DNA of 11,240 nt from Phycisphaeraceae bacterium. GTDB taxonomy: Bacteria > Planctomycetota > Phycisphaerae > Phycisphaerales > Phycisphaeraceae. Positions 2,455 to 10,695 of this stretch are shown here, one piece after another. A program made the position numbers and the translations under genes. Numbering within the stretch: the stretch's first letter is position 1; every line of letters begins with the position of its first letter. The notes under the pieces are model-generated. The model searched no databases. It was not told where the DNA came from and worked only from the letters and a program-made list of their open reading frames with translations. The stretch covers positions 1 to 11,240 of the forward strand of contig JADZET010000243.1 in the NCBI GenBank assembly GCA_020850375.1, in the 5' to 3' direction.

Positions 2455-3135
2455 TCATGTGGGCGTGGCGGGGTCGGCGGTCAGGGATTCCTCCGCGGCG
2501 CGGCGGAGGTATGTCGAGGCGGTGCGTCGCGGCCGCAGGGCGTCGGGCAGGCATAGGTGTAAGAGCGAGCAGTGATCACACTTGGGCTGGCGAGAAGCTG
2601 GCGGTGTCATTCCGCCGCGGACGATCTCGTGCATACGGGCGGCCGCGGTTTCAGTTCGCATGCGCAGGGTCGCATCGAGCGGCACGTCTAGCCGCCGGCG
2701 TGTTTTGCCATAGAACAGCGCGCCGACGGTGATGCTGCCAGGCGGCAGACGAAGCATTTCCTCAAGGCAGATCGCCTGGGCACAGAGCTGGACCTTGTCG
2801 GCATCATGCGACTTGGGCCGGCCGCGTTTGTACTCGACCGGCCGGGGGATGCCGTTGGATTCAGGCGGGAACTCCACGATGTCGCTGACGCCGAAAAGGC
2901 CCAGGCGGATGGACGCCAGCTCGACACCCCGTTGCACACGGACGCCGGCGGGCGTTGTGGCGGAACGGGGCGCGCCGCGGGCCTTGGGATCGTGAGCCCG
3001 CTTGTGCATGAGCCGGCCCTCGACGGTCAGGCGGTTCTCAGCCCAGAGCCGTTCGACGTGGATCAAGGCCGCCTGCCGCTCACAGAACAGCAGGTGTTGC
3101 AGGGCGCTGATGGGCAGCAGGTCGGCCTGATCCAT
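2455..3135 (-). CDS. cas4: CRISPR-associated exonuclease Cas4
   Basis: The product is 226 aa, a PD-(D/E)XK-family nuclease with an iron-sulphur cluster. In I-C systems Cas4 works with Cas1-Cas2 to select PAM-bearing prespacers and trim their ends. Visible motifs are the first cluster cysteine C18 (LLFCERQ), H44 (RLMHKRAH), D85 (FGVSDIVEF), the E101-x-K103 pair (PVEYKRG), the downstream Gln motif (KVQLCAQA, about 115-122), and three C-terminal cysteines C186, C189 and C195 (KCDHCSLLHLC). All nuclease and cluster residues are present. A GGGAG Shine-Dalgarno lies six bases upstream of the ATG. The gene follows cas7 after 27 bases and precedes cas1 by 16. Confidence 0.97.
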   Translation of the reverse strand: MDQADLLPISALQHLLFCERQAALIHVERLWAENRLTVEGRLMHKRAHDPKARGAPRSATTPAGVRVQRGVELASIRLGLFGVSDIVEFPPESNGIPRPVEYKRGRPKSHDADKVQLCAQAICLEEMLRLPPGSITVGALFYGKTRRRLDVPLDATLRMRTETAAARMHEIVRGGMTPPASRQPKCDHCSLLHLCLPDALRPRRTASTYLRRAAEESLTADPATPT

Positions 3136-3162: not shown

Positions 3163-4113
3163 CTATTGCCAATCGATCCAACGCTCGACGGTGACGCCGG
3201 CGGGCAGGGCGGAAGCGTCCACGTTGAGGATGTAGTCGCCGGCCGAGCGCGGCGGGCGGGTGTCGCCCTCGGAAGCTCCATTGCCCGGCAGGGGCGTGAC
3301 CCCTGGTTTCGGCGAGCAGGTCACACGTTTGAATAGCTGGTCCGCGCGGGCGTTGCCGAGCTTGCTGTCGTGCTTGAAGGCGATGCACGCCACGGGCTTC
3401 ATGTTTCCTCGCGCGGCCGAGCGGTCGTGCTCGAACATCAGGTTCAGAGCGTCCTTGAGTAGTTGGAGGTCGTTTTCATCAAAACCCGTACCCTTATCGC
3501 CATCAGCCAGGCAGGCGTTGACGTAGCCGTGTGCACGGTAGAGAGCGTAGGGCACGGCGAACTTGCGGCCCATGGTGCGATTGCCGCCGTCCTGGGCCTC
3601 GGCTTCGCGCTCCGTGGTGACGGCGCAGCGCGTGACGGCGAATTCGCCTGTGACGATGGGATGGATCGAGCGTGCCAGGCCGAACTGAACCGGGCCGCGG
3701 ACCTGGCCGCAGTTGACGTCGGTGGTCATGACGGCGCCGAAAGCCCTGATGTCGTAGAAGTTTTTGCACATCCAGGCGGTAAGCTGCTGATCCTCGGCTG
3801 CCTTGTCGGCGCCTTTGGCCTTGCGTTTCTTCGGATCGATGTCCGTCGCTTCATAGGCGCGGGCGTGCTGCTGGTTGAGAATGGCCTTTTCCTTGACGTA
3901 GATCTCGAAGGGCGGCTTCTCTTCCTTGACCAGACCGACGTAGTTACGGATCTTCCGCTTGAGGCATACGTCGGTGACCAGGCCCTGGCCGGTCTCCGGG
4001 TCGACGCGAGGCAGGTTGCCGGCGTCGGGATCACCGTTGGGGTTGCCGTCGGTGATGTCGAAGAAGTAGACGAAGTCGTAGCGGTTCTGGATGGGGGTGT
4101 TCCTGGTCGCCAT
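3163..4113 (-). CDS. cas7: Cascade backbone subunit Cas7 (Csd2), type I-C
   Basis: The product is 316 aa. Cas7 polymerises along the crRNA spacer to form the Cascade backbone; in type I complexes its thumb flips every sixth nucleotide out of the heteroduplex. Family hallmarks are [13 protein letters not shown] (about 18-30), [12 protein letters not shown] (47-58), [12 protein letters not shown] (118-129) and [15 protein letters not shown] (139-153). The ATG lies two bases after the cas8c stop and has a GGAGG Shine-Dalgarno seven bases upstream. It sits between cas8c and cas4, the normal I-C order. Confidence 0.98.
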
Positions 4114-4115
4114 GA

Positions 4116-5885
4116 TTAAGCCTCCGTGGTAGTGAGCGGTTGGTTCTCGGCCGTGCCTTCGCGCTTGGTGAAGAAGTCCTGACGCTGGTGGTAGTAACCG
4201 ATGTAGAACAGCCCTTGTTGTTCCAGAGAGAAATGAACGGGGAAGCGATCGTCGATGTGGCTGAGGATCTCCTGAACGAGCTTTTCTCGATTGATTCGTT
4301 GGCCGGCATTATCTAGCTTGGCCAGGTGATGCTGGTGCAGCCGCAGCAGACGGGGAAAGACCGACGCAGGCGTGGTGGCGGCGCTGCCGAGGTAGCCTTC
4401 CCGCACGGTTTTGCTGAGCCCTGGCAGGGCGTCGAGCTGGGTCTTTTCGATGGCCGCAAACAGCCGGCCCATGTGATACGCAGGTTCGGGGTGGTCTCTG
4501 TTGAGCGACACGGGAATCTCCTTGTCCAGCCCGGCGAGGCGGGCCTCACGGGTGAGGTGGGCCTTGAGGATGGCGGCCCGGTGGTAGCTGATGGTCTGAT
4601 CGGCGCGGATGCGCCGGAGCACGGCGGCATAGAGGGCGGCGGGATAGCGGCCGCCCGAGAGGATCGCCCGGGCCATTTCGCCTGCCAGTTGGGGCGCGAC
4701 GTCCTTGCGATCTCGCGCGGTCTGGTCGGTGATGAGCTGAAGCGACCACGGCCGGCTGTTCGGCGGCTCGCCCGTCATCTCCAGATCCGTGAAGTGCTGA
4801 GCCAGGTGGTCAGCGAACTCCTCAACGGTGCCGACGAGCCAGAAGCGGACGCTGACGCGCGCGGCGTTGGGCGACAGGCCAAGAACAAAGAATTTCGCAT
4901 TCGGCTCATCCAGGCCGTCGTGCGGACGGCCCTGGCGCATCGCCGCAAGGAATCCCTGCACGCGGGCTGTCGTGGCGGAGTCCTCGGCCGGGCCGCTGTC
5001 TGCGAAATCATTGATGATGTGGCTGAAGGCTGACTCAAACACCGTCGGCCGATCGGACCAGAAGACCACCGTCGCGTCGCCCAGGCGCGTGCGGTGTCGC
5101 TCGTCGGCGAGCATGTGGTTGAGGGCCGTGGCGTAGCGGAAAGCGTCCTGCACGCCGACCGGGGCGTTGTAAGAATTCTCCATGCCGTAGCTGGTAAAGG
5201 CGGGAAGGTTGAACGACACCAGCAGCGCGCCGGACGACTGGCTCTCGATCACGCCCTTGATCTTTGGCTCATGCAGGCGGGCGATCGACTGTTTCTGGCC
5301 GTTGATGAGACTGACGCCGACCTGCGGCGCTTCGTCGCCATCGTCGTCGGATTTGAGCTGGCTCTCCCAATATCGTTTGATGGCCGGACGGTCATGCACG
5401 TAACCCGACTCGCCTCGAATGCGGAACACGCCGAAACCGGGCCCCACCTCGGCGAGGATTTCCTGCTGTTTGGCCTGCTTCGGTTCCCACTTTTCGAGAA
5501 ACCGGCACACGGCTGAAAACCCCCGGTCTTTGACGAACTCTTCTTCACCGAGATGTCGCTCGCGGAAGGCTTTAAACGCCTTGAGAGCTCGCCCGGCCTT
5601 GGCAGAGTCGTCGGAATAGCCCAGCAGATAGGCCGCGTTGTCCCAGAGGAAACAGGGGTTCAGGCCTGAGCCCGAAGGCTTGGCCTGGCCGGGCACAATC
5701 ACGGGCGTAGGCCGCTGTTTGCCATCCTGCTCGGTGCGGCCGTCCTGGATGGCGTGTAACGAGCCATCCTTCTCGAGCACCACCACAAAACTGGTCTTCT
5801 GCCAACTGAATCCAAATGGGGCAATGTGCTGCGAGGGGTCGCTCTCGAGTCGTTGGTAATAATCGATCAGGCTCTGAAGGATCAC
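4116..5885 (-). CDS. cas8c: Cascade large subunit Cas8c (Csd1), type I-C
   Basis: The product is 589 aa, the usual Cas8c length. Cas8c reads the PAM on target DNA, opens the duplex and recruits Cas3; in I-C an internal start in this gene can also yield the small subunit Cas11c. I start it at a GTG (5883-5885), giving [14 protein letters not shown], the expected Csd1 N-terminus, with a strong AAGGAGG seven bases upstream. The cas5d stop overlaps this start as GTGA, indicating coupled translation. The frame stays open upstream to 6119, but that part only overlaps cas5d and has no Cas8c-like sequence. The C-terminus carries the conserved [11 protein letters not shown] block (about 563-573). No frameshift is seen. 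Confidence 0.96.
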
Positions 5886-6547
5886 GCCCGCACCTCCTTG
5901 GCGTCGAACGCCGGCACGTCGATCACGCCGCCGCTCATCTGGGCCCGGAAGAACCGCGGCGTCATGTCGTGCTCGAAGTCGATGTCGTGGAGCATGTAAC
6001 CCAGGTCGCGGTCGAGCTGCTCGGGCGGGAGTTCGCTGCGGGGCATGTCCGCGTCGGACTCGATGAGGGCGAAATGGGCTGGGAACTCGCGGCATCCAAG
6101 GTAGGGCCGATGGAAGCATTGACCCGCCCGGGCGCGGCGGTTGAACTGGTCGAGGTGCTTGGCCGCGTTCTCCGGCCCGCCGACGATCTCGAAACGGGCC
6201 TCGATGACATAGGCCACGTCGCGGAGGATCGTCGCCGCCCGCTGCTGGCGGTCCTCCTCGACGTACAGCCCGAGGTTCCCCGTCCCACGGTTCATGGTGG
6301 TCTTGACCGTGCCGGCGGGAATCTTGTTGCCCACTTCGTTTCGCCGCAGGCTCGTGAACCGGATCGGCCGCAGCACGCGCAGTCGCGTGATCACCCAGCG
6401 GATCTCGGGCTTCCAGTAGATCGCTTCAAGAACGCCCCGCCCGGCTGAGGGGGTGATGACGTCGTAACTAACCCGCTCGACCTTCATCTCCGGCCTGGAG
6501 AAACAGGCGAAGTCGCCCCAGACGTGAAGTCGTATGCCGTGGGCCAT
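5882..6547 (-). CDS. cas5d: Cas5d (Cas5c), pre-crRNA processing Cascade subunit of type I-C
   Basis: The product is 221 aa. Type I-C has no Cas6; Cas5d cuts the pre-crRNA below the repeat hairpin, stays bound and caps Cascade. The N-terminus ([20 protein letters not shown]) and the glycine-rich [15 protein letters not shown] block (about 141-155) are diagnostic. By recall of the Bacillus halodurans enzyme, the catalytic Tyr corresponds to Y44 ([10 protein letters not shown]) and the Lys-His pair to K130-H131. The ATG has an AGGAG seven bases upstream. It lies 63 bases after the 75-aa gene and is the first recognisable Cascade gene of the operon. A TATAAA at about -25 has no matching -35 box. 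Confidence 0.97.
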
Positions 6548-6610
6548 GTTCTATCTCCTCATTTGTGGTTTTATAGCGGAAGCATTGCGACGGCCTTCTA
6601 CACAAACCGC

Positions 6611-6838
6611 TTAGTTGGTGCCCGGGCGGGGTTGACGGTACTTTTTGACCATTCCCCGCTTTCGGGCGCTGTTCATGCACCACCAGCATTCGTTGCGGTC
6701 ATTCGAGCCGTGGGGATTCGTCTTCCACTCCTCGAACAGCATTTCGAAGGCGGGCGTGTAAGGGAGGCGGTCAATTTCGGCAGGAGCCTTGATGGCCAGA
6801 GATGCACCGAGTTTGAGCTTTGAGGCGGGAGTTCTCAT
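6611..6838 (-). CDS. Small unrecognised protein, first gene of the cas operon
   Basis: I do not recognise this 75-aa protein. I chose the ATG at 6836-6838 because it has an AAGGA eight bases upstream and because the predicted promoter at 6899-6927 would lie inside any longer frame (an in-frame ATG exists at 6934). Third codon positions are about 70% G or C, which supports real coding. The protein is basic near its C-terminus and holds a C-x-x-C pair in ECWWCMNSARKRG, which could bind metal or be chance. No signal peptide or membrane segment is evident. It lies about 54 nt downstream of the predicted start site targeted by the crRNA-like RNA. It could be an accessory protein, a product guarded by Cascade repression, or a remnant. 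Confidence 0.55.
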   Translation of the reverse strand: MRTPASKLKLGASLAIKAPAEIDRLPYTPAFEMLFEEWKTNPHGSNDRNECWWCMNSARKRGMVKKYRQPRPGTN

Positions 6839-6859
6839 TGACTGGATCCTTGTCTGGGG

Positions 6860-6878
6860 GTACGCTGTTAGAACGTAC
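6860..6878. repeat. Short inverted repeat in the 5' leader of the cas operon
   Basis: GTACG at 6860-6864 and CGTAC at 6874-6878 form a 5-bp dyad with a 9-base loop, just downstream of the predicted start site and partly inside the protospacer. It could be a weak RNA hairpin or an operator, or chance. Confidence 0.3.
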
Positions 6879-6896
6879 ACCGGAACATCACATGAA
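6867..6896 (-). promoter_or_regulatory. Probable Cascade binding site: TTC PAM plus partial protospacer
   Basis: Minus-strand TTC at 6894-6896 is followed from 6893 downward by ATGTGATGTTCCGGTGT. The orphan spacer-like segment starts ATGTGCTGCTCTGGTGT. Positions 1-5, 7-8, 10-11 and 13-17 are identical; the mismatches are 6, 9 and 12, and pairing is lost from 18. Positions 6, 12 and 18 are bases that type I Cascade flips out of the duplex, so the effective pairing is nearly continuous for 17 nt. TTC is the canonical I-C PAM. Pairing that stops about half way is what allows binding without Cas3 cleavage in known crRNA-like regulators. Binding here would cover the transcription start. Confidence 0.75.
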
Positions 6897-6898
6897 CC

Positions 6899-6927
6899 AG
6901 TATCTTCGCCGTTTACCCACGTGTCAA
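6899..6927 (-). promoter_or_regulatory. Predicted sigma-70 promoter of the orf-cas5d-cas2 operon
   Basis: On the minus strand there is a perfect -35 box TTGACA (6922-6927), a 17-nt spacer and a -10 box GATACT (6899-6904, four of six consensus bases). The predicted start of transcription is at about 6892-6893. This is the best promoter seen in the window, and it points into the 75-aa gene and then cas5d. The TTC PAM and protospacer of the crRNA-like RNA begin exactly at the predicted start site. Confidence 0.72.
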
Positions 6928-7008
6928 GGGGCATGCTCGATAAGGCTGTGATTTTCTTGCGTCAATTTCCGCTGCACGGCAGAAATAGGGAGCGAGCTCA
7001 TCTGAGTT

Positions 7009-7040
7009 GTCGTCCCGCTCGCAGGGACGTGGATTGAAAC
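7009..7040 (+). repeat. Orphan degenerate type I-C repeat
   Basis: This 32-bp element is in the same length register as the array repeat read in crRNA sense. It differs at positions 5, 9, 11, 15 and 19. Positions 20-32 (CGTGGATTGAAAC) are identical, and the hairpin stem is preserved through the paired change at 5 and 19. It stands alone, about 6.2 kb from the array, between the cas3 stop and the cas operon promoter, and on the opposite strand. Confidence 0.95.
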
Positions 7041-7067
7041 ATGTGCTGCTCTGGTGTCATTGCAGAT

Positions 7068-7101
7068 GGGGCGGGCGTGTAAACGCTCGCCCCGTTTTTT
7101 T
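7068..7101 (+). terminator. Rho-independent terminator of the crRNA-like RNA
   Basis: GGGGCGGGCG (7068-7077) pairs with CGCTCGCCCC (7084-7093) to give a 10-bp stem with one G-U pair and a TGTAAA loop. One G and seven T residues follow (7095-7101). The U-tract exists only on the plus strand, so it ends a rightward transcript and not the leftward cas3 transcript. No protein-coding gene precedes it on this strand, so its presence supports a short RNA gene. Confidence 0.93.
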
Positions 7102-7163
7102 AAGAGCAGATGGCTGCTAACCGTCGACTTCAACGCCATATGCAGACTCCGGCGCAGCACGCT

Positions 7164-9512
7164 CTAGCCTCGATCAGGAGGACATGAAATAAGGCTTTCG
7201 GGCCCAAGCCCAGCAGTATCCATGGTTAGGCCGAGATCTCGGTCGTAAGCGTCTTGATTCGCGAGCACCCACAGGCCATGGGCCTCAAGCAGCACTTGGT
7301 TGCTGTACAACCGCTGCAACTCTCGCTCACGCACACTGACGGTGTACGGCTGCAGTTGCCGCAAGAACAAGCGTCCCGCCGGCTCGGGCATCGCCTGCAA
7401 CTGACGGATCAACCGTTGGGCCAACTCGTCGAAGGGAACGATGATCGTCGTCTGCTCGTCCTGGATCAGGCGGTAATTCTGGGCCGCCTCGCGGAATTGC
7501 AGGTGCGTGCCCTGACGCTCGAAGCACTTCATGACGCCGGACTTGTCCCAGTCCTGCCCGTCCTGGCCGCCTTTCTGCCAGTAATGAAGTCTGAAATAGG
7601 CCTCGATGGCCGGCGGCGCCAGCAGATTGCCGGCATGCTCCGGCAGGATCTCGCGCGTGTGGCCCGCACCTGCCCGAAACATGGCGGGCAGCCCGCCGGT
7701 GTCCTGGCCCGGCTCGAACACGTACACCTCGCCCAGCCGAGGCCGGCCCGCGTCGTCGACGAGCGTCCCCTCGCGGTTGCAGCGTCCCGCGGCCTGTGCG
7801 ATGGCGTCGAGCCCCGCCATGGCACGGTAAACGACGGGAAAATCCACGTCCACGCCAGCCTCGATCAGTTGCGTGCTGACCACCCGGCACGCCTGTCGAT
7901 TCTTCAGACGCTGACGGACGGCCTTGAGCACATTCCGACGGTGGGCGGGGCACATCAGGGCGCTAAGGTGATAGATCCCCGGTTCCAGATCCCCAGCTTG
8001 TCCGACGCAATCGCGCAGGGACGCGAAGAGCTCGGCGGCATGTCGGCGGGTGTTGACGACGCACAGCACCTGCCCGTGGCGGGCGAGTTTCTCAACCAGC
8101 GGCGGGTTATCCAACGGCCCCAGCACGGACACCTCGACCCGCCGAAGCGATGCGAACAGCGGTCCCGTGTCGGCAATGATCGGCCTGACCCTTTCGAATC
8201 CGATCGAAAAATCCTCGCGGCGGAGCAGGGCCGGCTGCGTGGCGGTGCAGAGCACGATGCTGCATCCATAGTTCCGCACCAGCTCCTGCAGCATCGCCAG
8301 CGTCGGCGTCAGCAGCTCGACTGGCAAAGCCTGCGCCTCGTCAAGCACGATCACGCTACGGGCGATGCGGTGAAGCTTGCGGCAGGCCGACGTCCGATTC
8401 GCGAACAGCGACTCGAGCAACTGGACGTTCGTGGTGACGACCAAAGGCGCGTCCCAATTCTCCGCCGCCAGGCGAGACCGCTCGGTCTCCCGCTGCGGGT
8501 CGAGGTTGCTGTGATGCTCGAGCACGTGCTCAGCCAAAGGTCCAAGAGCGCGGCGGAACACATCCGTGTTCTGCTCAATGATGCTGGTGAAGGGAATGGC
8601 ATAGATCACGCGGTCGAGGCTATGAGCGATGGCGTGTCGCAGGGCGAAGGCCAGTGACGAGAGCGTCTTGCCCCCGCCGGTCGGCACGGTCAGATCGAAC
8701 AACCCCGGCGGCAACGCTGCCGCGTCACGGCACGCATGGAGGACCCGCCGGCGATGGACATTGACCGGCGTCGGCGGGGCGACGTCGAACTGGGCCAGAT
8801 GGCGGTTGAATTCATCCGCGAGCGACCGCATGTCCGGCGGCGAGGTCTCCCGAACGGCGGCTCGCTCCGGCTGCATGAACGACTCAGTGGCCAGGAAGTC
8901 CGCGTCGACGAGGCACGAAAAGAGCATGCGAACGAACGTGGCCGCCTGAAAGGACAATTGGCGATCGTCGCGGATCCACTCAAATGGTGGCAGCACTGGC
9001 GCCGGCATTTCCAGCAACGAAGATGGCGCGGCGCTGTAGTCGGCGATTTGCTTCTTGAGTCGATCCTCCAGTCCGCTATGTCCGCCCGTGCTTCGGTCAA
9101 CGTTGTCCGGAAGGCCACCATGGTGGCCGGCGATGGCGTAGGCGAGCAGACGCCCAACGGAACCATGCCTTTGGACCGCATGCTGAGCGCCGGCGGTCGC
9201 ATGGTCAACCCTGCCGCGGATCTCGGCGACGTGGATATCAGCCTCAGCCGTCTGCTCGTTCGAGCTCGCTCGCAGATACGCCTGGAACTCACCACTGTAC
9301 TTGCCCAGGTCGTGCCATAGCCCCAGCACGCGTCCCCACTCAGCCGACGCGAACTTGCCAGTAAAATCCGCTGCCCCTTGCCCTGGGTCCCGGCCCTTGG
9401 TCGCCCCTTCCGCGACTTGCCTGAGGTGCACCTCAAGCGGCTCCCATTGCTCAGGCCCGCACCCCAATCGCGTGTGCGCGAAATACTGCCGGCCTGTGGG
9501 TCCTTTCAGCAT
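7164..9512 (-). CDS. cas3: CRISPR-associated helicase/nuclease Cas3 (HD domain fused to SF2 helicase)
   Basis: The product is 782 aa. Cas3 is recruited by target-bound Cascade to nick, unwind and degrade DNA. HD nuclease domain: H29 (VHLRQVA), H67-D68 (LWHDLGKYSGEF), D103-H104 and H130-H131 (AGHHGG). Helicase domain: Walker A TVPTGGGKT (275-283), TTN (360-362), the DEAQ box (391-394), TATQP (423-427), VVSTQLIEAGVDVDF (544-558) and the arginine-finger motif QAAGRCNREG (573-582). All appear intact. The ATG at 9512 has no good Shine-Dalgarno. A weak promoter (TTGAAC at 9542-9547, TAAGCT at 9519-9524) would give a nearly leaderless mRNA. The gene is separated from the other cas genes by the crRNA-like RNA and the operon promoter, so it is probably transcribed on its own. 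Confidence 0.97.
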   Translation of the reverse strand: MLKGPTGRQYFAHTRLGCGPEQWEPLEVHLRQVAEGATKGRDPGQGAADFTGKFASAEWGRVLGLWHDLGKYSGEFQAYLRASSNEQTAEADIHVAEIRGRVDHATAGAQHAVQRHGSVGRLLAYAIAGHHGGLPDNVDRSTGGHSGLEDRLKKQIADYSAAPSSLLEMPAPVLPPFEWIRDDRQLSFQAATFVRMLFSCLVDADFLATESFMQPERAAVRETSPPDMRSLADEFNRHLAQFDVAPPTPVNVHRRRVLHACRDAAALPPGLFDLTVPTGGGKTLSSLAFALRHAIAHSLDRVIYAIPFTSIIEQNTDVFRRALGPLAEHVLEHHSNLDPQRETERSRLAAENWDAPLVVTTNVQLLESLFANRTSACRKLHRIARSVIVLDEAQALPVELLTPTLAMLQELVRNYGCSIVLCTATQPALLRREDFSIGFERVRPIIADTGPLFASLRRVEVSVLGPLDNPPLVEKLARHGQVLCVVNTRRHAAELFASLRDCVGQAGDLEPGIYHLSALMCPAHRRNVLKAVRQRLKNRQACRVVSTQLIEAGVDVDFPVVYRAMAGLDAIAQAAGRCNREGTLVDDAGRPRLGEVYVFEPGQDTGGLPAMFRAGAGHTREILPEHAGNLLAPPAIEAYFRLHYWQKGGQDGQDWDKSGVMKCFERQGTHLQFREAAQNYRLIQDEQTTIIVPFDELAQRLIRQLQAMPEPAGRLFLRQLQPYTVSVRERELQRLYSNQVLLEAHGLWVLANQDAYDRDLGLTMDTAGLGPESLISCPPDRG

Positions 9513-9615: not shown

Positions 9616-10695
9616 TCATCTCCCCCTCGAGCGCAGGAACCCAATGCCCAACAGGAGCAGCAGCAACGCCAAGCTGATCCCTGCCAGCACCCGACCAATG
9701 GTCCAGACCGTAGGCACCGCGCCGCCCAGAGTCATGTCCAGCCGATACTTGCTAGAACTGGTGACGATCAGGCCCTTGTCGAGTTGGCTTAGCGCGTAGC
9801 CAGCTCCGCCGCCGACGAGTTCGATACCACGCGGAGGTGGCTAGGCACCCGAATCCCTTGGCGTCTGCGGGCCTCTTGCGCTACGCAGTTGCTCAGGTAG
9901 TTCCAGACTTCGTCGAGCGTGATGATGGCTCGCAGTTGCCGCAGGGCGGCTGATCTGCCTGGCCGCGCATGCTTTGGGCGAGGAAATAGGTGAAGATGCC
10001 CTGGCGCAAGTCCTGGGCCTCGATGGATTCCTGCCCGCCGCCCGCCGAGGCGATCGTCACCCGCCCGGCCCCGGTGAAGCTCCGGGCCATCTCGGCGATG
10101 TCCACCAGCGCCCTCTGGTTCAGGACCGTGTCGGCCGCGTAGCAGGCGTCGATGAACGTCACGAGCCGACGTGAGAGACTGGCCAGGAGATATTTGTGCA
10201 GATCACTGTTGGTCAGCGCGGTGTCCGCCGGGTAATCCAGCTCGGAATTCTCGGTCACCCTGCAGGTCTCGGCGCGCTGCCTGGCGCCGTGGCCGGAGAA
10301 AGAAGATCACCACCAGGTCGTCCTCCTCCACGCCGCGCAGTGACGCTAACGCCTTCTTGATCTGTGTGCTGGTGGCTTGGTTGCCCAGCAGCAGCATGAC
10401 GTTCTCAGCGGGAAAACCGCTGATCTGGGTGTTCGTCAGCGTGTCGTAGAGCAGTTGAGCGTCGGACTCGGCGACGGACAGGTTGGGGATCTTGGGGTCA
10501 GCGTAATCACTGATCCCGATGATCAGGGCCCGTCGATTGGCGCCGACGTAGGTCTGGGCCTTGATCTGTTCCAGGACCACGGGCCTTGCTGTCGGTCTGG
10601 GCATGGACGGCTAGGCTGGCCCGTGCCAACGCCATGGCCGTCAGGCAGTACATCAGCCTCTGCCAGGAACTAGATTTGTCTCGACCTCTAGCCAT
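9616..10695 (-). pseudogene. Caspase-family (peptidase C14) protein, broken by at least four frameshifts
   Basis: Pieces of one gene lie in order in different frames. A signal peptide (MARGRDKSSSWQRLMYCL..., cut near VHA-QTD) starts at ATG 10693-10695. After a shift near 10570-10604 comes the caspase p20 fold, RRALIIGISDYADPKIPNLS to DDLVVIFF. An extra base near 10297-10304 displaces the catalytic His of SGHG (10289-10291). The next piece holds the catalytic Cys in TFIDACYA (10142-10144) and TIASAGGGQES...GIFTYFLAQSMRG. A shift near 9950 leads to AALRQLRAIITLDEVWNYLSNC. A last shift near 9840 leads to PPPRGIELVGGGAGYAL and a C-terminal membrane helix (VWTIGRVLAGISLALLLLLL, about 9640-9708) ending at the TGA 9616-9618. 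The intact ancestor was probably an exported, membrane-anchored caspase-like peptidase. A TATACT box (10744-10749) upstream may be its old promoter. Sequencing error is unlikely, since about 8 kb of cas genes show no frameshift. Confidence 0.85.

Follow-up and report, generated by a model that had tools for sequence, protein, structure and literature searches.

A predicted one-repeat RNA that may turn type I-C Cascade on the promoter of its own operon

Among the common CRISPR subtypes is type I-C, which lacks Cas6 and has a minimal Cascade. The window analysed here, the whole 11,240-nt stretch of contig JADZET010000243.1 from a Phycisphaeraceae bacterium, is a type I-C locus, and it raises the question of what a solitary, altered copy of the array repeat is doing among the cas genes with a guide of its own. 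A profile search placed every cas gene above its curated cut-off and all on the minus strand, in the order cas3 (7164-9512; TIGR01587 and TIGR01596), a 75-aa ORF (6611-6838), cas5c (5882-6547; TIGR01876), cas8c (4116-5885; TIGR01863), cas7 (3163-4113; TIGR02589), cas4 (2455-3135; TIGR00372), cas1 (1386-2438; TIGR03640) and cas2 (1093-1383; TIGR01573), followed by the array (1-830), which has 13 repeats in the window and continues past its end. The cognate effector genes cas5c, cas8c and cas7 are present and intact by the same cut-offs. Rfam gave no match at gathering thresholds in the window. At the far side of cas3, frames at 9893-10604 on the minus strand resemble a caspase-like peptidase (GISDYADP, DACYAAD) and are apparently split by a stop.

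The RNA module and its site in the window

The candidate RNA lies on the plus strand between cas3, which is upstream of it and co-oriented with the operon, and the 75-aa ORF, and is made up of a solo repeat, a guide and a terminator. The solo repeat (7009-7040) lies apart from the array and is of degenerate type I-C form: it agrees with the array repeat at 27 of 32 letters and makes a hairpin in the predicted fold. Five of the 32 letters are changed, the last 13 are the same, and one stem pair is altered on both sides, from C5-G19 to T5-A19. The 5′ handle TGGATTGAAAC (7030-7040, plus strand) has the same letters as the array repeat has at its end, and its 11 nt are what we take to be the length of a type I-C handle. 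Array and solo repeats were compared in the window and in eight other loci (L008, L014, L022, L033, L046, L049, L062 and L075), and in all nine the solo stem is unlike the array stem and the handle is kept or nearly so. Four of the eight belong to cultured carriers: Tautonia sociabilis GM2012 (L014, which also has an ORF of the 75-aa family described below), Solimonas soli DSM 21787 (L033), Sinimarinibacterium flocculans DSM 104150 (L046) and Acidocella aquatica NBRC 112502 (L049). Directly 3′ of the guide, with no second repeat in between (a second repeat is common in CreR, the cas-regulating RNAs, though not universal), stands an intrinsic terminator (7066-7101, plus strand), a 13-pair hairpin at 7066-7095 with a T run at 7095-7101, which was seen in the fold and is absent from the listing of an automatic terminator scan. 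The first-pass annotation had drawn the guide from 7041 to 7067; its start holds and its end has to be moved, because the terminator stem begins at 7066 and leaves a free guide of 25 nt (7041-7065, plus strand), not 27. The fold of 7005-7101 has a z of -4.17, and none of 200 shuffles was as good. A promoter for the RNA itself is not evident, the best sigma70-like match reaching 7/12.

The first 17 nt of the guide, ATGTGCTGCTCTGGTGT (7041-7057, plus strand), agree with ATGTGATGTTCCGGTGT (6893-6877, minus strand) at 14 of 17 positions, with mismatches at 6, 9 and 12 and scattered matches only past position 17. This target site (6877-6893, minus strand) directly follows a TTC PAM (6894-6896, minus strand) and starts 6 nt past the -10 box, at about the predicted transcription start, of a predicted sigma70 promoter of the form TTGACA-N17-GATACT (6899-6927, minus strand; boxes at 6927-6922 and 6904-6899; 10 of 12 letters). 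The region 6540-7240 holds this single promoter-like site, the operon's, where 0.3 would be expected in shuffles. Re-reading of the sequence bore out the first-pass description of the match, with its three mismatches and its loss of pairing from position 18, of the PAM (minus-strand 6896-6894 reads TTC) and of the start of the site at 6893. No other site on either strand of the whole window scores as well for this guide, whether the PAM is required or not, and the next-best TTC site reaches 10/17. Of 20,000 permuted guides, 6 did as well (14/17) at one or another of the 328 TTC sites, about 3e-4, in agreement with the earlier rough estimate of well below 0.01.

A solitary repeat might alternatively serve as a Racr-like decoy that traps Cas proteins and whose guide is irrelevant, and a solitary I-C repeat RNA does inhibit type I-C in the account available from PMC10651486. 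A decoy has no need of a guide, yet the guide found here fits its own promoter beside a TTC, and, unlike Racr, the unit lies among cas genes, between cas3 and cas5c, and not in a virus or prophage away from them. We rejected the decoy on its placement and on the guide match, and regard it as very improbable.

Matched guides and sites in related loci

Related Cas5c loci were drawn from genome contigs (the best 80 of 87 loci), five further genome sets, two viral contigs and three plasmids. The five sets had a match in 33 of 294, 32 of 398, 31 of 246, 28 of 300 and 49 of 247 genomes, and contributed up to 30 loci each; with the window this gave 232 loci, or 223 once nine with the same upstream 120 nt were removed. 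Loci from the five sets span only about 1.5 kb upstream of cas5c, so that an RNA ahead of cas3 could show up only among the first 80 loci and in the window. In 211 of the 223 loci cas3 was seen upstream of cas5c, and in 59 of the 223 the gap between the two is at least 130 nt. A search of these regions for a repeat tail with at most two changes gave 44 tails in 43 loci. Of the 59 wide-gap loci, 40 are among these 43 and the other 19 have no repeat tail at this threshold. The 44 tails and L075, whose unit lies in the region ahead of cas3 and is the one convincing RNA unit at that place among the loci where it could show up, make up 45 solo-repeat units, picked blind to their targets. Left out were L081-L092 (refetches of loci from the first scan), regions under 100 nt, guides under 22 nt and repeats present more than once per locus, which are arrays. 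Neither of the two loci with a Cas5c relative in the viral collection yielded a repeat unit, nor did any of the three type I-C plasmids. In L001, the nearest relative (94% Cas5c identity, same array repeat), cas3 and cas5c are close together and the whole RNA module is absent; the module is therefore dispensable.

Three further observations belong to the survey. A contig filed as viral (L122) encodes a type I-C Cas5c relative with 63% identity. In L041 and L115 an RNA-less gap between cas3 and cas5c holds what by eye is a pair resembling VapBC-type toxin-antitoxin genes. The stem partner of the repeat seems, again by eye, to lie 3′ of the guide in L012, L044 and L226, where the guide would sit inside the loop of one long hairpin and would not come after a closed repeat hairpin.

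For each unit we took the best 18-nt match of the guide in its own region, PAM not required, with guides swapped between loci as controls. The best own-locus match follows TTC in 32 of 45 units, against 49 of 1978 swapped pairs (2.5%). In 35 of the 45 the unit has a TTC site (at least 11/18) with a score higher than its guide reaches in any of the 44 other loci (43 for either L008 tail). Three more loci found via the ORF family described below (L254, L259 and L260) bring the confident pairs to 38 including the window, and the design of solo repeat with matched guide and site recurs in 37 other loci and is not special to the lineage of the window. All 38 confident guides are distinct, the most similar pair sharing 11 of 17 letters, yet they fit their own promoters, and guide and site therefore co-vary. 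The first-pass annotation had looked to homologous loci for such co-variation, and had held that relatives in which the repeat is kept and the seed match and PAM are lost would speak against it. The outcome went the other way, with own-locus sites topping the swapped loci and both features kept in those 35 of the 45 units.

Ten units fail the ungapped TTC test: the second tail of L008, L009, L038, L058, L069, L072, L079, L140, L201 and L205. The failures are of several kinds. L038 has a match of 15/18 at a TTT, in L009 a short match (10/18) follows TTC, and in L069, L072 and L201 the match begins right after TTC and needs a gap. For the remaining five (the second L008 tail, L058, L079, L140 and L205) no convincing site was found in the unit's own region, and some of the ten are likely to be chance repeat tails. 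Those five are also what can be said for taking the match in the window as a chance fit to an inert stray repeat, a reading at odds with both the rarity of such a match among permuted guides in the window (6/20,000) and the excess of TTC sites over swapped pairs across loci (32/45 versus 2.5%). On these two controls, guide permutation and guide swaps, it was rejected, and we give it next to no credence.

The profile of pairing and a model of autorepression

The pairs share a characteristic distribution of mismatches. Among the 35 pairs, matches occur at positions 1-5 in 34-35, at position 6 in 10, at 7-11 in 31-35, at 12 in 12, at 13-15 in 29, at 16 in 24, at 17 in 18 and at 18 in 14, with later positions near background. 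The full set of 38 gives the same picture: positions 1-5 match in 37-38 pairs, position 6 in 10 and position 12 in 13, and pairing ends near 17 and is at background after 18. Leaving out 6 and 12, positions 1-17 match in 508 of 570 cases, against 23 of 76 at positions 6 and 12, a dip with a P of about 1e-27 when pairs are treated as independent, which related loci are not fully. Since the match rate at 6 and 12 is near that expected from composition (0.23 and 0.27, respectively), both positions look unselected. The best matches of swapped pairs have no dip at 6 or 12 (0.42-0.49 over positions 1-18). Every sixth base is flipped out in Cascade, and the profile is the apparent footprint of that complex. 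The flipped-base pattern, which the first-pass annotation had read from the mismatches in the window, extends to these 35-38 pairs, with positions 6 and 12 at chance and the other seed positions nearly fixed. Two details concern the same positions. The target carries an A at position 6 in 24 of 35 pairs and at position 18 in 21 of 35, although the guide base is free there. Furthermore, in the one-gap pairs L049, L069 and L201 the gap falls at about position 6 or 11-12, beside flipped positions, and a one-base bulge is perhaps tolerated next to them.

The profile also bears on whether the unit is a decaying self-targeting mini-array, its spacer once acquired from the promoter and now functionless. 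A PAM-flanked partial match is what a mutated self-spacer would be expected to leave, and in L049 guide and site are similar over about 30 nt, with gaps, but decay would give even mismatches from full length, and instead the 38 pairs mismatch at 6 and 12 and stop near 17. This explanation was rejected on the position profile and the flat control of the swapped pairs, and seems to us hardly credible.

We propose a model in which the predicted crRNA-like RNA would probably load into the cell's own type I-C Cascade, bind the promoter of the Cascade operon and shut down Cascade's own synthesis. That such an RNA is aimed at its own operon promoter was the central claim of the first-pass annotation, and the matched design of repeat, guide and site in 38 pairs argues for it. 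In the model the RNA would be transcribed from the plus strand, towards cas3, and Cas5c, its predicted processor, would cut at the foot of the hairpin to leave the 11-nt handle. The RNA would then load into Cascade and be guided to the start of the operon transcript, where an R-loop of about 17 bp would block RNA polymerase while being too short to recruit Cas3. Known partial targets allow binding without Cas3 recruitment. In the window, this would lower expression of the 75-aa ORF along with that of cas5c-8c-7-4-1-2. The repression would be lifted once Cascade is claimed by array crRNAs or anti-CRISPR proteins.

The leading genes and the relation to known crRNA-like RNAs

What the site would control differs between loci. 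In eight of the 35 (L064, L101, L169, L170, L173, L174, L176 and L178) its end lies 20-65 nt ahead of the cas5c start codon; L075 has cas3 at the head of the operon, and there the site ends 82 nt before the cas3 ATG. No gene lies between the site and cas5c or cas3 in these nine loci, and here the cas promoter itself is the predicted target. A sigma70-like match of at least 10/12 is found near the site in 9 of 35 loci, as against 3.4% of shuffled stretches; elsewhere no clear promoter stands out. In a different set of loci, nine with an ORF of the window's 75-aa family beside cas5c, there is neither a terminator nor a promoter of at least 9/12 between that ORF and cas5c, and L260 has the two genes overlapping by 1 nt; because of this we infer that the target promoter drives both.

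The 75-aa ORF of the window leads the operon behind the target promoter and belongs to a small conserved family, here called F1. A single-sequence search for homologues returned one protein and an alignment search 80, and the family, of at least 80 proteins, has near-fixed DRLPYT, W52 and RKRG. The protein is predicted to be all-helical (model pLDDT 84.5), and the conserved helices of the family are modelled as soluble and not hydrophobic. The ORF has no Pfam or NCBIfam match above cut-off and matched no toxin family, a fold search with its model gave no match at E ≤ 0.001 in PDB or viral models, and a Pfam search of the small ORFs gave sub-threshold matches only. Of 21 F1 loci in 248 genomes, seven adjoin cas5c, all seven with the solo repeat and six with a strong TTC match; the other 14 have no cas5 or cas3 nearby. 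Conversely, five Planctomycetota loci have the RNA without the F1 family (L005, L027, L078, L101 and L103). The family (DRLPYT...ARKRG), seen in the window and in L254-L274, occurs beside cas5c and also elsewhere in planctomycetes. In L261 and L262 the F1 ORF comes after a Fic-like ORF (motif by eye), with no cas5 or cas3 nearby, and in L264 two copies of the F1 domain head a longer, by eye ATPase-like, protein. In other lineages the gap before cas5c holds small hydrophobic ORFs of membrane type from two other families, one in L069, L072, L188, L189, L197 and L203 and the other in L033, L046 and L141.

Because the operon predicted to be repressed begins with this conserved ORF, a CreTA-like role is a live rival, in which the RNA would be an antitoxin of the CreTA/CrePA guard type, the 75-aa ORF a poison if Cascade is lost, and the repression of cas genes a side effect. 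CreTA (CRISPR-regulated toxin-antitoxin) is described, in the portions available of PMC8501985 and PMC10097628, for I-B haloarchaea and I-F Acinetobacter. The I-F system, with a mini-ORF in the cas3-csy1 gap that is divergent from creA and downstream of the CreA site, is, as far as the accessible text of PMC10097628 goes, the closest anatomical parallel, likewise placed between cas3 and the cas gene that follows. In Haloarcula hispanica a creA with one repeat also ends in a terminator (PMC8501985), and the degenerate repeats of CreTA give specificity and resist recombination in what is available of PMC9458426. With CreTA the window has in common a degenerate repeat, a PAM-flanked partial match and an RNA divergent from the regulated gene, and with CreTA/CrePA a partial-match site on the promoter ahead of a small (75-aa) gene. 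The guard gains further from the nine loci with F1 next to cas5c, in seven of which F1 and the RNA occur together (the RNA is weak in L009 and none was seen in L020), from the small membrane-type ORFs of two families at the same place in other lineages, and from F1 relatives elsewhere that follow a Fic-like ORF. With the F1 ORF lying between the site and cas5c, the target could still be a toxin. Unlike in CreTA, the regulated unit runs on into cas5c-8c-7-4-1-2, and many I-C relatives lack the small ORF. Against the guard, too, are L020, where F1 occupies the operon gap and no such RNA was seen in the stretch examined, the nine loci where cas5c or cas3 is the first ORF after the site, and the nature of F1 itself, soluble and outside any matched toxin family. 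Finally, a separate small gene, which is our own yardstick for CreTA/CrePA and not one from the papers, is not what the nine F1 loci contain, with no terminator or promoter setting F1 apart from cas5c. We consider the guard unlikely.

Autorepression of the cas operon instead places the RNA beside CreR, reported for types I-B, I-E and V-A in the available part of PMC13131331 and defined as uncoupled to a toxin gene in that of PMC12737573. Like CreR, it is a crRNA-like RNA in a cas locus, with a guide partly complementary to the cas promoter of its own locus, a PAM, its own effector present and predicted repression without cutting. Unlike CreR, it belongs to type I-C, without Cas6, so that Cas5c is the predicted processor; it has one repeat and a terminator, and the operon that it would repress is led by the 75-aa ORF. 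Shmakov et al. 2023 (NAR, gkad495) reportedly found, as CRISPR-derived RNA regulatory elements, standalone repeats, mostly of type I, with spacers partly complementary to cas promoters, two features that the present RNA shares. Autorepression of Cas9 by a long-form tracrRNA, said to have been described in Workman 2021, likewise uses a natural, shortened guide to direct an effector to the promoter of its own gene; that RNA is of type II, derived from the tracrRNA and without a CRISPR repeat unit, unlike the repeat-based RNA of the window. No type I-C case was found in the literature searched, which did not reach Shmakov et al. 2023 or the original CreR paper. The type I-C RNA likely works like CreR, a known kind of regulator.

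A broader and more speculative extension, possible though in our judgement rather doubtful, would join the two roles. In a widespread type I-C circuit, spanning at least Planctomycetota, Pseudomonadota, Desulfobacterota and Coriobacteriia, a one-repeat RNA would throttle the leading cas gene, and in several lineages the operon would start with a lineage-specific small protein (the soluble F1 here, membrane-type elsewhere) that comes free along with newly made Cascade once the complex is drained by anti-CRISPRs or phage crRNAs. Regulator and guard would then be one, a bridge between CreR and CreTA.

If autorepression is true, type I-C is another subtype that uses a guide to set its own level, and there would be a testable reason why certain loci have a gap between cas3 and cas5c that the rest lack. 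The 38 natural pairs would also be a record of how Cascade reads its targets in living cells, with the sixth and twelfth bases drifting, positions 1-5 hardly doing so, and pairing stopping near 17, a range fit for binding without destruction. As such they may be useful for judging the risk of self-targeting and for building I-C repressors.
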